A DNA stretch of 34,702 nucleotides from Brevibacterium sp. (GTDB taxonomy: Bacteria > Actinomycetota > Actinomycetes > Actinomycetales > Brevibacteriaceae), in contig JAPSIC010000016.1 of the NCBI GenBank assembly GCA_031179165.1, forward strand, positions 1 to 34,702. The letters are read 5' to 3'. A program made the position numbers and the translations under genes. This document shows, piece after piece, positions 4,887 through 9,151 of this stretch. Position 1 is the stretch's first letter. Each line of letters opens with the position of its first letter. The notes under the pieces are model-generated. The model made no database searches, was not told the origin of the DNA, and was given only the letters and a program-made list of their open reading frames with translations.

Positions 4887-6347
4887 TCAGTCCTCCAGTG
4901 CCCGATCCTGGCGCTCCGCCCGCGCGGCCGCGGTGCTGAACCGGGTGAAGAGTCGCGAGGAGTCGCTGGACAGGGAGAGCAGGACCGCGACCTGCATCGC
5001 GATCGTCGTCAGTGAGTACATGTTGGTCTCCAGGCTCTGATCGCCCGTGAAGAAGGTGATCATCGAGACGATGACGGACACGGTGGAGAGGGTGAGGATC
5101 CACAGCCGCGCCCGATTGCTGCCGCGGAACACGGCGGCACTCGCGACCACCTGCAGACAGCCGATGACGAGACTGATGCCGATGAGGACGCCGGCGACGA
5201 TCCGCGTCGCCACCTCATCGCTGACCGAGTCGACGTTGAAGCCGGTCACCTCACTGCGCAGATGCTCCCAATTGAGCAGCGTGCCGAGGATGTCGGCGGC
5301 CTGGAAGATGAGCAGGACGAGCACGAGTGCGGACCCCACCACGGTCGGCAGGGGGCGTCTGCTCCACAGCGCCTTCGTCAGCTCCGAGACCGAGCGCGAC
5401 TCCGCATCGATCTGAGTGGCGTCAAGGGCCAGGTCGAGGCGCTCGGGATAGTCGGAGACATCGGGAACGACGTCGTAGACCTCGAGGATCGGCAGGTCGC
5501 CGTCGGTGATGATCGCGTCTCCCCCGCCGTTGCGGGAGTGATAGCCGGTGGAGAAGTCACCGATGTGATCGACGCTGATCCGATCGTCGGCCTCCGTGAC
5601 CGAGTCGACGATGTAATCGCGTTCGACGTCCGTGTTCTCCTCGATCTTGTGGGTGAACTGCAGGGTGAACAATGACAGACCCACACTCTTGTCATAGGTG
5701 CCCGCCGCCAGCCAGTCCGCCTGATGACCGCCGGGCAGCAGCCACCCTGCCGGGCACTTCCAGAACCGGACGTGGTGGCGCTGCCCCGGGTCGCCGTCGA
5801 CCTCCTGCTGATAGGCGAAGTCCTGCCGCCTGCCGAAGAGCAGCAGCGGTGACACCGGCGCCTCGGGATAGCTGCGGCGCAGGATGGTCGAGATGAAGAG
5901 GTTCCACGCCGAGGCCGCGGTGATGTCATCGGCCAGTGTCCACCCCGCGGCCTTCATCGCGTGGTGGACCTGCGCCTCCTCACCACGGAAGGCCAGATTC
6001 ACCGGGTCACCGAGCAGACCGTCCGAGGTGCGGGTGCGGCCGATGAAGTAGTTGGGCACATAGATCTGGGAGAGGATGCGGTGCAGCCGCGGCAGTGTCA
6101 GGTACGAGAGCACGATCCAGAACACCAGCAGCGTGAGCACCTGCCACCAGCCGAGGGAGAATCCCTTGAGCAGGATGAGGAGGGCCAGCCATGTCGAGGC
6201 GGCCCCGCCGAAGAGGAAGAAGAAGTAGTCGAGAACCCCGGTGACGGTGAATCGGTGACGTCGAAACGCAAAGGGCTGCCTGTGCCGTCGTTCCTGACTC
6301 GGCTCCTGACCGGGCCGAGGGTCAGGAGCAGCCATGCGGGAGCTCAT
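4887..6347 (-). CDS. LssY C-terminal domain membrane protein
   Basis: The product has 486 residues. Two TM segments (about 36-60 and 68-85) precede a soluble domain (about 110-330) that resembles the LssY C-terminal domain: GDPVNLAFRGEEAQVHHAMKAAGW (113-136), HHVRFWKCPAGW (191-202), WLAAGTYDKSVGLS (212-225) and the HKIEENTDVERDYIVDSV stretch. Three further TM helices follow at about 336-358, 382-408 and 414-434, with a fourth at about 445-460. The biochemical role of the domain is not established; it is often fused to phosphatase or membrane modules. Start: an ATG at 6347 sits 6 nt after TACACT, so a leaderless start is preferred over TTG 6353 or the internal ATG 6335, none of which has a good ribosome site. 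Confidence 0.75.
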   Translation of the reverse strand: MSSRMAAPDPRPGQEPSQERRHRQPFAFRRHRFTVTGVLDYFFFLFGGAASTWLALLILLKGFSLGWWQVLTLLVFWIVLSYLTLPRLHRILSQIYVPNYFIGRTRTSDGLLGDPVNLAFRGEEAQVHHAMKAAGWTLADDITAASAWNLFISTILRRSYPEAPVSPLLLFGRRQDFAYQQEVDGDPGQRHHVRFWKCPAGWLLPGGHQADWLAAGTYDKSVGLSLFTLQFTHKIEENTDVERDYIVDSVTEADDRISVDHIGDFSTGYHSRNGGGDAIITDGDLPILEVYDVVPDVSDYPERLDLALDATQIDAESRSVSELTKALWSRRPLPTVVGSALVLVLLIFQAADILGTLLNWEHLRSEVTGFNVDSVSDEVATRIVAGVLIGISLVIGCLQVVASAAVFRGSNRARLWILTLSTVSVIVSMITFFTGDQSLETNMYSLTTIAMQVAVLLSLSSDSSRLFTRFSTAAARAERQDRALED

Positions 6348-6353
6348 GGTCAA

Positions 6354-6390: not shown

Positions 6391-7464
6391 TCAGACGGAG
6401 GCCGGACGGTCGGCCCGGCGGCGCTGCAGCACCGCCTTCGCCGTCACCGCCACCTCCGGCTCGGGGTCGACGGTGAAGTCGTCGATGAAGTCGTCGATCT
6501 CGGGACCCGGGATCTCGATCAGGACCTGCAGGACCCGGAACCGCACGGTCGCCTCGGCGGATCGTGCGAGTCGGCGCAGCTCAGCCAGGACCCGCTCGGA
6601 GGGCCCGGCATCCTCGGCTGCACCGGAGCTCGCGGCGATGACGAAGGAGGCGAGCGCCTCGGCCGCGTCGATGTCCTTCGGGCCGTCGATGGCCATCTCG
6701 AACAGGTCGGCGAGGGCGGCCGGGTCTCGCATCCGTCCGAGGATCAGCGCGGCAGTGGTGCGCACCTCCGTGTCCGTGTCGCCCAGCCCGAGGCGCATCG
6801 CCTCGGTGATCGCGGCTGCGGTGACGGCGTCCACCTGCCCGGCGGGGCTGTTGCGGCGGATCTCGTCGAGGGCTCTCACCGCGTTCCGGCGCGTCTCTGT
6901 CGAGCCTTCGCGCATCCCCTCGACCAGGTAGCGGACTGCCTCAGGGCCCGACTTCGCCAACGCCCACCGCATGGCACCGGCGGCATTGAGCACGGACTCG
7001 CCGAGGACGGCGCGGGACAGGGACTCGACCGGAACGGCCCCGTCGACTCCGCTGCCCAAGGCGGCCTTGTGGCGTTGGAATACATCGCGGGACTCGAGGG
7101 ACCGCATGAGGTCGATCGACAGCAGCAGGGCTTCACCGTCGGCGGGCCGGAGCTCCTCGATCCGCTCGAGATTCTCGAGCAGCTCCTGCTCGGCGGCGAT
7201 GCGGCCCCTCGACTGCGTGATGAGCTCGGTGATGACCGTGCGGGGGTCGAAGTCGGGATCGGCCAGGGCCGACCCGACCTCACCGAGCGTCATTCCCAGT
7301 TTGCGCAGGCCTTCGATGTGGAAGATCCGCCCGATGTCGGCGGGCGAGTACTCGCGGTACCCGTTCGAGTTCCGCTGACTGGGCTCGAGCAGGCCCAGGG
7401 ATTCGTAGTGACGCAGCATGCGAGCGCTCACGCCCGACCGTCTCGCCACCTCACCGATGCGCAT
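6391..7464 (-). CDS. MerR-family regulator with HEAT-repeat effector region
   Basis: The 357-residue protein begins with a complete MerR winged helix-turn-helix (MRIGEVARRSGVSARMLRHY, then GLLEP, NGYREYSPADIGRIFHIEGLRKLGMTLGEV; residues 1-65), followed by a coiled-coil dimerisation helix at about 75-108. From about 155 to 350 come helical repeats of HEAT type, such as ETRRNAVRALDEI, DTEVRTTAALILGRM and EATVRFRVLQVLIEI. There is no GyrI, B12 or metal-binding C-terminus. The start at 7464 has GGAGG and GAGGTGG upstream. It lies 240 bases downstream of another HEAT-repeat gene on the same strand; a MerR-type operator stands in front of that gene. It is likely an activator of its own cluster (inference). 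Confidence 0.85.
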   Translation of the reverse strand: MRIGEVARRSGVSARMLRHYESLGLLEPSQRNSNGYREYSPADIGRIFHIEGLRKLGMTLGEVGSALADPDFDPRTVITELITQSRGRIAAEQELLENLERIEELRPADGEALLLSIDLMRSLESRDVFQRHKAALGSGVDGAVPVESLSRAVLGESVLNAAGAMRWALAKSGPEAVRYLVEGMREGSTETRRNAVRALDEIRRNSPAGQVDAVTAAAITEAMRLGLGDTDTEVRTTAALILGRMRDPAALADLFEMAIDGPKDIDAAEALASFVIAASSGAAEDAGPSERVLAELRRLARSAEATVRFRVLQVLIEIPGPEIDDFIDDFTVDPEPEVAVTAKAVLQRRRADRPASV

Positions 7465-7485
7465 GACCACCTCGCCTCCGTTCCC

Positions 7486-7491
7486 ACTATA
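7486..7491 (-). promoter_or_regulatory. Candidate -10 (TATAGT) for the MerR-HEAT gene
   Basis: TATAGT on the minus strand lies 21 bases before the MerR-HEAT ATG, leaving room for the GGAGG ribosome site. The -35 is poor. The surrounding gap 7465-7704 has no convincing gene; it contains a 17-base near-repeat starting CGAGAGCCG at 7548 and 7569. Confidence 0.35.
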
Positions 7492-7704
7492 GGAGCACTT
7501 CCATGTCCGAGAACCGTCGTCGCCGGGCCGAGTGCCTTCGTCGCCCACGAGAGCCGATGTCGGCCGCCCGAGAGCCGGTGCCGGCTGATCCGGTCGCATT
7601 GCCGGAGGAAGGAGCCCGAGCAGCCGGTGGCGGTGCCGTGCGAACTTGCCCCGCCCGCACTGCACCGCCGGAGACCGGACCTTCCCATGACCGGTCCACA
7701 CCGA

Positions 7705-8388
7705 CTACTCGGACCCGAGGGCGACCACCCGCTTGGCCTCGCTCCAGGCGTGAGCGAATCCGGCGTCCGGGTCATCGAACATCTCCCGGGTCGCCATGGC
7801 GTGCGTCCGCACTGGTTCTTCCTCTGCCTGCAGACTCTCATCCAGCACTGACACGAGGTCCTCACCCAAGGACACGAGGGAGCGGCTGAGGCTCTTGCGC
7901 ATCTCGACGTCTCCGCGTCCCAGCTGGGTGACCAGGGCCCCTGCCAGCCGCATCCGCTGCTCACCGGGCACCAGGGCAACCGCGGATCGCCATGCGCTGC
8001 GCGCCACCTCGGGGTCGGGATGCGCGATCAGCGCTGTGCCGATGACGTCCGGGTCCATCGCCTCCCACCCCTCGGCGTCGCCGATCTTCGACAGCGTATG
8101 CATCGCCTGGCTCTGGGCCTGGGGGATATCCGACCTCAGCTCGCCGACCAGCCGCGGCACGGTCATCGCGGTGGGCAGGCGGGTCAGGGCCCACGTGAGC
8201 ATGTCCCGGACGAAGAAGTCCGATTCGATCCGGCAGCGCCGGATGAGGACGTCGAGGTGGCGCGCCTGGGCCACGGTTCCGATCACCAGGGCCGCCCGCA
8301 GGCGCGCCTGCGGGTCGGGTCCCGTCAGCGCGGCCACGACCGGCTCAGGAGTCGGGATGTGCGGACTGTTCTCCTGTGGTTCGATCAT
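7705..8388 (-). CDS. HEAT-repeat protein
   Basis: The 227-residue, all-helical protein is built of HEAT-like repeats: DPQARLRAALVIGTVAQARHLDVLI, DFFVRDMLTWALTRL, IPQAQSQAMHTLSKIGD and DPEVARSAWRSAVALV. It has no signal peptide or TM segment. The start MIEPQENSPH at 8388 is chosen because GGAGGTGG lies 6 nt upstream; two longer in-frame starts (ATG 8403, GTG 8412) lack such a site. It stands first in a probable two-gene unit with the MerR-HEAT regulator, behind a promoter with MerR-operator geometry. The repeats resemble those in the regulator, so the two proteins may bind each other or the same partner (inference). Confidence 0.8.
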   Translation of the reverse strand: MIEPQENSPHIPTPEPVVAALTGPDPQARLRAALVIGTVAQARHLDVLIRRCRIESDFFVRDMLTWALTRLPTAMTVPRLVGELRSDIPQAQSQAMHTLSKIGDAEGWEAMDPDVIGTALIAHPDPEVARSAWRSAVALVPGEQRMRLAGALVTQLGRGDVEMRKSLSRSLVSLGEDLVSVLDESLQAEEEPVRTHAMATREMFDDPDAGFAHAWSEAKRVVALGSE

Positions 8389-8410
8389 CGATTCCACCTC
8401 CATGGCACCC

Positions 8411-8441
8411 ACTCAAGACCTTCTCACCGTGTCAAGGTCAA
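8411..8441 (-). promoter_or_regulatory. MerR-type operator/promoter with 19-bp spacer
   Basis: On the minus strand, a -35 TTGACC (8436-8441) and a weak -10 TTGAGT (8411-8416) are separated by 19 bp. The spacer region is filled by a 21-bp dyad at 8418-8438: half-sites ACCTTGACAC and GTGAGAAGGT around a central G, 8 of 10 positions symmetric. A long 19-20 bp spacer over such a dyad is the hallmark of promoters activated by MerR-family proteins. Transcription would start near 8404, just ahead of the strong ribosome site of the HEAT gene. Confidence 0.7.
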
Positions 8442-8480
8442 GAGCTGCGACGACGTCCGCAAGATCTCCTCCCCGCGCCG

Positions 8481-8486
8481 TAGAAT
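8481..8486 (+). promoter_or_regulatory. Candidate -10 (TAGAAT) of the GyrI-like gene
   Basis: TAGAAT lies 29 bases before the ATG at 8516, with the ribosome site GGAGGG in between (8507-8512). No clear -35 is seen, and the MerR dyad is about 43 bases further upstream, so co-regulation is possible but not shown. Confidence 0.4.
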
Positions 8487-8515
8487 CGAGTCATCCCATT
8501 CACTTCGGAGGGCCC

Positions 8516-9151
8516 ATGGACAAGGTCGATCTCAAGAGGACGCTGCCGGATTTCGCGGCGAAGTCCGGGGAGTTCGCCATCCTCGACCTCCCGCCTCGGC
8601 AGTACCTGATGATCGACGGGCACGGCGACCCGAACACCTCCGAGGAGTTCCGCTCCGCCGTCGAGACCCTCTACCCGCTGGCGTACGCACTCAAGTTCCT
8701 CAGCAAGCGGGAACTCGATCGCGACTATGTCGTTCCGCCCCTCGAGGGCCTGTGGTGGGCCGAGGACATGAGCGCGTTCACGAGTGCCCGCGACAAGTCC
8801 GCCTGGGACTTCACGCTCATGCTCCTCGTCCCCGACTGGCTCGGTCGCGAACACTTCGACACCGTCGTCGACGACCTCGACCAGAAGGTCGCGGCGGGGA
8901 AGAAGCACCTCGCCCGCCTCGGCGAGGTTCGCTTCGACACCCTAGCGGAGGGCACGTGTGTGCAGACTCTGCACCTCGGGCCCTTCGACGCCGAGGCGGC
9001 CGTGCTCGAACGCCTCCATCACGACGTGATCCCGGCCTCGGGATTCGAGATGTCGGGCAAGCACCACGAGATCTACCTGAGCGATCTCCGCCGGGTGTCC
9101 GCGGACAGGCTGCGGACGATCCTGCGCCAGCCGGTGCGCCGCACCGAGTGA
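8516..9151 (+). CDS. Free-standing GyrI-like small-molecule-binding protein
   Basis: The 211-residue protein resembles the stand-alone GyrI-like family (SOUL/GyrI fold): an early ILDLPPRQYLMIDGHGDP strand-turn, then SAVETLYPLAYALKF, VVPPLEGLWW, a conserved SAWDFTLMLLVPDWL stretch, and GTCVQTLHLGPFDAEAAVLERLHHDVIPASGFEMSGKHHEIYLSD, in which acidic and aromatic residues would line the pocket. In BmrR-type regulators this domain is the C-terminal drug sensor of a MerR protein; here it is a separate gene, divergent from a MerR-HEAT cluster. ATG 8516 is preceded by GGAGGG. Its TGA abuts the stop of the next, convergent gene with no base between (TGATCA). Confidence 0.8.
   Translation: MDKVDLKRTLPDFAAKSGEFAILDLPPRQYLMIDGHGDPNTSEEFRSAVETLYPLAYALKFLSKRELDRDYVVPPLEGLWWAEDMSAFTSARDKSAWDFTLMLLVPDWLGREHFDTVVDDLDQKVAAGKKHLARLGEVRFDTLAEGTCVQTLHLGPFDAEAAVLERLHHDVIPASGFEMSGKHHEIYLSDLRRVSADRLRTILRQPVRRTE

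Follow-up and report, generated by a model that had tools for sequence, protein, structure and literature searches.

The 34,702-nucleotide (nt) stretch of Brevibacterium sp. DNA analyzed here (contig JAPSIC010000016.1, referred to as the window) carries a gene for a MerR-type regulator fused to HEAT repeats (MerR-HEAT), a gene for a free HEAT-repeat protein (HEAT) directly upstream of it, and a promoter overlapping a MerR-type operator. At the level of sequence, these two genes and the operator are a cassette conserved across Actinomycetia, with an operator that is nearly private to the operon. The best reading of the locus, with a probability of roughly 0.7, is an operon that is self-contained and autoregulated by a MerR-type protein, with the free HEAT protein as its output and a divergent GyrI-like gene as a local neighbor. 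The original prediction for this locus had described the same parts, and they were recovered: Pfam finds a MerR helix-turn-helix (HTH) domain and HEAT repeats in the fused gene, HEAT repeats in the separate gene upstream, which belongs with MerR-HEAT, and a GyrI-like domain in the stand-alone divergent gene. The predicted promoter with a 19-base-pair (bp) spacer over a dyad is present at 8411-8441 on the minus strand and is built like a MerR-type operator. The coordinates of all features are given in Table 1.

The conservation of the cassette was assessed in several sets of genomes. A scan of named genomes by similarity to MerR-HEAT yielded 581 loci, the best 80 of which were fetched as stretches of up to 11 kb. 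They comprise 16 loci from Brevibacterium and 64 from other genera, including Streptomyces, Amycolatopsis, Rhodococcus, Tsukamurella, Micromonospora and Frankia. HEAT is adjacent to and upstream of MerR-HEAT in all 80, and an operator within two mismatches of the pattern was found in 79; the exception is a locus (L101) whose contig has just 20 bp in front of the HEAT match. In 61 of the 64 non-Brevibacterium loci the two genes overlap or are at most 16 nt apart, based on automated start positions. Of 29 relatives fetched by place, 28 have an upstream HEAT gene in the same orientation, with a distance of 1.3 kb in L060; L064 has a weak HEAT match on the opposite strand and nothing better. A crude clustering of open reading frames from the 80 loci gave no further shared sense-strand neighbor, that is, no cluster of at least eight loci in which more than one came from outside Brevibacterium; since this clustering recovered MerR-HEAT itself in 56 of the 80 loci, a rarer or overlooked neighbor may exist.

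In an unbiased draw of 118 genomes from the class Actinomycetia, HEAT was counted at E <= 1e-30 and occurred in 20 genomes, with MerR-HEAT adjacent in 16 of them. An operator with at most one mismatch was present in all 16 pair-bearing genomes compared to 3 of the 102 others (p = 4e-17, a value that ignores kinship), and it was the only such site in 12 of the 16. The three sites without the pair precede a MerR-GyrI gene according to Pfam (L212), precede a MerR gene of similar length (L228) or look spurious (L215). Across 14 named genomes, 13 of 15 operator sites precede HEAT; one genome (G070) has no match to the longer pattern. A site in L162 is located at the start of another MerR gene. Extra sites in relatives precede MerR genes of 272-278 amino acids (aa) (L212, L228, L232 and L233), and both of the genes submitted to Pfam, those of L212 and L232, encode MerR plus GyrI domains.

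Within its own genome (3.46 Mb, 87.8 % complete), the operator pattern TTGACCYTNNCACNNTGNNARGG, sought with at most two mismatches, has a single zero-mismatch site, which as a palindrome also scores with two mismatches on the opposite strand. A control with the reversed pattern had no matches in this genome, and the site was judged to exceed chance. Of the 100 loci used for the operator alignment, 99 gave a site within two mismatches of the pattern, taking the best one on the HEAT strand, and 96 remained after dereplication. The mean information is 1.60 bits over positions 1-31 and 0.15 bits in the upstream flank. Outside the search pattern, the first and sixth positions of the -10 element are conserved in 95 (T26) and 96 (T31) of the 96 operators, and the following G32 in 90. 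The -10 element is found at a constant 19-bp spacing in all 96, and this spacing is independent of the choice of the dyad pattern. According to passages of a review on MerR regulators (PMC9909328), spacers of 19-20 bp with a palindrome are a mark of MerR promoters. Downstream of the promoter, the HEAT start is probably the ATG at 8388 rather than 8403 or 8412 because relatives have a Shine-Dalgarno sequence similar to GGAGGTGG and begin behind it.

In the AlphaFold2 model of MerR-HEAT (pLDDT 90.9), a winged HTH (about residues 1-68) is followed by a long helix (residues 74-105) and then by a HEAT solenoid (110-352). Its HTH part matches the structures of MtaN (1jbg, TMt 0.79), TipA (TipAL-N, 2vz4) and CueR, and the modeled helix 74-105 corresponds to the long dimerization helix that follows the HTH in MerR proteins. 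The model of the free HEAT protein (pLDDT 93.9) is a solenoid of 14 helices, for which the 50 structure matches listed (Foldseek, VIA-align 2) are generic HEAT, alphaRep and ARM solenoids. The free protein aligns with the effector half of MerR-HEAT with a probability of 96 and an E-value of 3e-9 over 187 columns, and the HEAT half is, as judged from the sequences, a diverged paralog of the free protein. In an alignment of 16 rows, comprising HEAT proteins with MerR-HEAT, those without it and fusions to EF-Ts (two rows, P0270 and L185, look identical), 22 residues are invariant over the free and fused members. Invariant residues occupy 14 of 80 positions in the B helices and 2 of 85 in the A helices (p = 0.001). 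In HEAT solenoids, the B helices line the concave face. A similar distribution was obtained for 86 HEAT proteins linked to MerR-HEAT, where columns conserved to at least 95 % split into 36 in B and 11 in A helices. Two tryptophans on the inner helices presumably resemble the layout of AlkD, and an identity as an AlkD-like glycosylase was considered; no match to the Pfam family DNA_alkylation was found at E <= 1, and no such chain is among the 50 structure matches listed.

In the proposed mechanism, MerR-HEAT would bind the dyad in the HEAT promoter, at the 19-bp spacer; a signal received by its HEAT half would lead it to untwist the DNA, so that RNA polymerase could read HEAT and next MerR-HEAT. 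Binding and activation by MerR-HEAT are inferred from the mechanism of the MerR family. Because hardly any other gene has this operator, the likely output is the free HEAT protein. It may act via the invariant residues of the inner helices, probably through contact with a protein or another ligand, and would stand beside MerR-HEAT much as TipAS stands beside TipAL. TipA is the nearest working model: passages of PMC7762955 describe, for Streptomyces lividans, a MerR N-terminus, an autoregulated locus and a free effector domain made from that same locus, and TipAL-N is among the closest HTH structures. The systems differ in that the effector half here is a HEAT solenoid and the free form is encoded by a separate, diverged upstream gene. 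In addition, the TipAS domain (PF07739) is not among the Pfam matches of MerR-HEAT at E <= 1.

Several points weigh against this interpretation. The best 80 loci were selected by similarity to MerR-HEAT itself, and therefore the unbiased draw of class genomes matters. Likewise, the choice of the search pattern accounts for part of the conservation in the columns it covers, and the columns outside it are the actual test. The operator is not strictly private. The window's own genome has one more site with two mismatches, which precedes a MerR-GyrI gene and thus indicates an operator style common to other MerR regulators. Of the 16 class genomes with the pair, 4 have a second site. It precedes a MerR-GyrI gene in G087, a MerR gene in G156 and a truncated HEAT gene in G175, and in G126 it is a palindrome. 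The reversed-pattern control produced 6 matches in 5 of the 118 class genomes. The distance from the operator pattern to the GyrI-like start ranges from 45 to 234 nt in 20 Brevibacterium loci and is 45-49 nt in 9 of them, where the promoter of the GyrI-like gene could be affected. At the invariant HEAT positions R61, Q94, H97 and K101, MerR-HEAT of the window has A, N, R and E, and with this loss the assumption that both proteins share the same ligand, as in TipA, may be wrong. Finally, the operator could mediate repression only.

The free HEAT protein might instead be mainly a co-regulator that binds MerR-HEAT through HEAT-to-HEAT contacts and acts as an anti-activator or co-activator in a feedback loop. 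The constant linkage, the close spacing of the two genes in the 61 loci mentioned above and the homology of the HEAT halves are consistent with this explanation. However, HEAT occurs without an adjacent MerR-HEAT in 4 of the 20 HEAT-bearing class genomes (L175 and L181-L183), where no operator is close, and in the EF-Ts fusions. A MerR-HEAT profile search of these four genomes returned nothing in three and, in G108, matches to no more than the HTH part among those listed. HEAT therefore has a job of its own, and regulating MerR-HEAT cannot be the only role of the family, which makes a mainly co-regulatory function unlikely. Three of these free HEAT genes (L181, L182 and L183) are kept in genomes of 1.3-1.4 Mb. 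Their neighbors are not consistent and include a DinB-family gene (L181) as well as PhnB-like and DUF1801 genes (L183).

The fusions to EF-Ts provide a concrete lead to the function of HEAT. They were found in two genomes (G274 and G334), where HEAT is joined to part of EF-Ts and a separate, stronger EF-Ts match is present in each, and they occur in some Actinomycetota, making up most of P0244-P0300 with named members from Euzebya, Nitriliruptoraceae and Salsipaludibacter. A protein search with one fusion as the query gave 60 proteins, of which 56 are listed with an EF_TS domain; in P0287, which contains the stretch CETDFVAK, the EF_TS match extends over positions 1-203 of 204 (E 7e-46). This stretch is important for EF-Tu exchange. 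The fusions belong to the same HEAT family as the protein of the window and share its 22 invariant columns, but they are joined to EF-Ts, and the two genomes tested had MerR HTH matches only and no MerR-HEAT. Such a gene fusion suggests a shared pathway, short of proof of contact. A more specific version, in which the cassette is an inducible translation-elongation module, with MerR-HEAT sensing a disturbance of EF-Tu/EF-Ts or an elongation-targeting antibiotic and HEAT binding or shielding EF-Tu, is speculative and distinctly improbable. If true, this MerR system would carry, as its effector half, a degenerate copy of the protein that it puts out.

Very unlikely is a plain repressor, that is, MerR-HEAT silencing its own operon until relieved by the target of HEAT or another ligand, without activation by DNA distortion. 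A dyad within the promoter spacer, seen in all 96 dereplicated sites, would fit such a repressor, but a simple repressor has no need for the constant 19-bp spacer, which passages of PMC9909328 present as a mark of MerR activators.

The GyrI-like gene looks like a lineage-local, hydrolase-type neighbor outside the cassette. In the fetched stretches of the best 80 of 581 loci, no match to it was found in any of the 64 non-Brevibacterium loci and in 6 of the 16 Brevibacterium loci. Among the 29 relatives fetched by place it is whole in 10 and partial in two (L053 and L056); the other 17 gave no match, and in three of these (L061, L062 and L065) the stretch stops too close to HEAT for a decision. 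At E 1e-20, 26 of 57 Brevibacterium genomes have a match, including two fragments and one match with an internal stop; 20 of these matches are next to an operator and a HEAT match (in two pieces in L210). Five genomes carry the gene at 55-60 % identity away from any HEAT (L205-L209). In a further locus (L188), it occurs with the LssY gene and a 159-bp HEAT match; within 3.6 kb there is no operator with at most one mismatch and no MerR-HEAT match, and a search of the whole genome (G005) at E 1e-25 gave no MerR-HEAT either. This looks like a deletion of the operon with the GyrI-like gene remaining. Over 37 Brevibacterium genomes, 14 have both the GyrI-like gene and MerR-HEAT, 13 only MerR-HEAT, 3 only the GyrI-like gene and 7 neither (Fisher p = 0.29, with G008 counted on a fragment of the GyrI-like gene).

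The closest solved relative of the GyrI-like protein is Lin2189 (PDB 3b49, E 1e-33), a cyclopropanoid hydrolase according to passages of PMC5684135. As in the cyclopropanoid cyclopropyl hydrolases (CCH) Lin2189 and YtkR7, the catalytic glutamates E157 and E185 and the aromatic cage residues W85, W99, F154 and Y187 are present, whereas Y46 is replaced by F; the likeness to this type is one of residues. The residues were mapped by a hand count against passages of the same paper, with the two positions that distinguish the mutant chain 5x5m from 3b49 as anchors.

These results bear on the central claim of the original prediction, which saw the locus as a MerR regulator taken apart, with the GyrI-like protein sensing the ligand and working via HEAT contacts on MerR-HEAT at one shared operator. 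It had proposed a search for conserved co-occurrence of the three genes and the dyad; HEAT, MerR-HEAT and the dyad are indeed conserved together, but the GyrI-like gene is not part of this set. Although the genes are adjacent and divergent, the operator is close to the GyrI-like start in nine loci and MerR-GyrI regulators use a look-alike operator, a detached sensor is highly improbable given that the operon and its operator occur without the GyrI-like gene in the fetched stretches of all 64 loci outside Brevibacterium, that this gene is uncoupled from MerR-HEAT, persists after operon loss and occurs apart from HEAT, and that it conserves hydrolase residues.

Other known MerR systems share the DNA-binding half. 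MerR-GyrI regulators such as BmrR, EcmrR and BrlR have the MerR HTH and, in actinobacteria, look-alike operators before their genes, but MerR-HEAT has no GyrI domain by Pfam at E <= 1. An intact MerR-GyrI regulator is encoded elsewhere in the same genome (C217:767-1672; L002, L148), with a look-alike operator (two mismatches) just upstream. In the promoters PcopA and Pmer, the dyad is centered at about the same place as in the HEAT promoter. The CueR/MerR metal regulators also share the 19-bp spacer, a length given in passages of PMC9909328, whereas MerR-HEAT has a HEAT solenoid instead of a metal-binding effector.

The architecture of MerR-HEAT is on record, and its function is not described in the open-access literature searched. 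A search for MerR with HEAT repeats mostly returned, among the matches listed, the soybean author name 'Merr.' or eukaryotic HEAT proteins, nothing was found for the combination with Streptomyces, and the word 'heat' is absent from the text of the review PMC9909328. This agrees with the statement in the original prediction that no such system was known. Ccr1 of Streptomyces was rejected as a candidate: PMC11272600 was the one paper found that brings together MerR, HEAT repeats, transcriptional regulators and Actinobacteria, but Ccr1 is a different protein of about 500 aa. MerR-HEAT relatives are nevertheless very common, with 3768 proteins at E <= 1e-20 among 8000 scored candidates. Both domains are present in 116 of the 120 relatives listed, and the database names are 'MerR family' or 'HEAT repeat' proteins. 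As the cassette is simple, with one main operator and two HEAT proteins, its signal and target are open to a direct search.

Table 1. Features of the MerR-HEAT locus (positions in the window) and of two HEAT-EF-Ts fusions (positions in their own loci).
Feature	Position	Strand	Evidence and remarks
-35 element TTGACC	8436-8441	-	Sequence, pattern search, operator alignment
-10 element TTGAGT (TNNNNT type)	8411-8416	-	Conserved columns outside the search pattern
Putative MerR-type operator dyad ACCTT-GA-CAC-G-GTG-AG-AAGGT, 21 bp, center 8428	8418-8438	-	Overlaps the end of the -35 element and the 19-bp spacer
Shine-Dalgarno sequence GGAGGTGG of the HEAT gene	8394-8401	-	Sequence; similar in relatives
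HEAT-repeat protein gene, 227 aa	7705-8388	-	HEAT_2 E 3e-10 (Pfam, longer frame from 8403); proposed operon output
MerR-HEAT regulator gene, 357 aa	6391-7464	-	MerR_1 E 9e-18 and HEAT_2 E 7e-12 (Pfam)
Possible -10 element TATAGT of a second, MerR-HEAT-only promoter	7486-7491	-	Inferred from Brevibacterium gaps
GyrI-like gene, 211 aa	8516-9151	+	GyrI-like E 2e-11 (Pfam); neighbor, judged outside the cassette
LssY_C gene adjoining the operon	4887-6353	-	
HEAT-EF-Ts fusion	L184:826-2088	-	
HEAT-EF-Ts fusion	L185:1489-2721	+	

The LssY_C gene is found in the same place in most Brevibacterium loci and in 0 of the 64 other loci. In L230, a truncated HEAT gene has a perfect operator, and its genome (G175) holds another HEAT/MerR-HEAT copy. 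Of 17 gaps between the two genes in Brevibacterium, 14 contain a -10-like hexamer whose last base lies 21-26 nt upstream of the MerR-HEAT start; it reads TATAGT, TAGAGT or, in one case, TACACT. This hexamer could provide a basal supply of the regulator while HEAT is induced.

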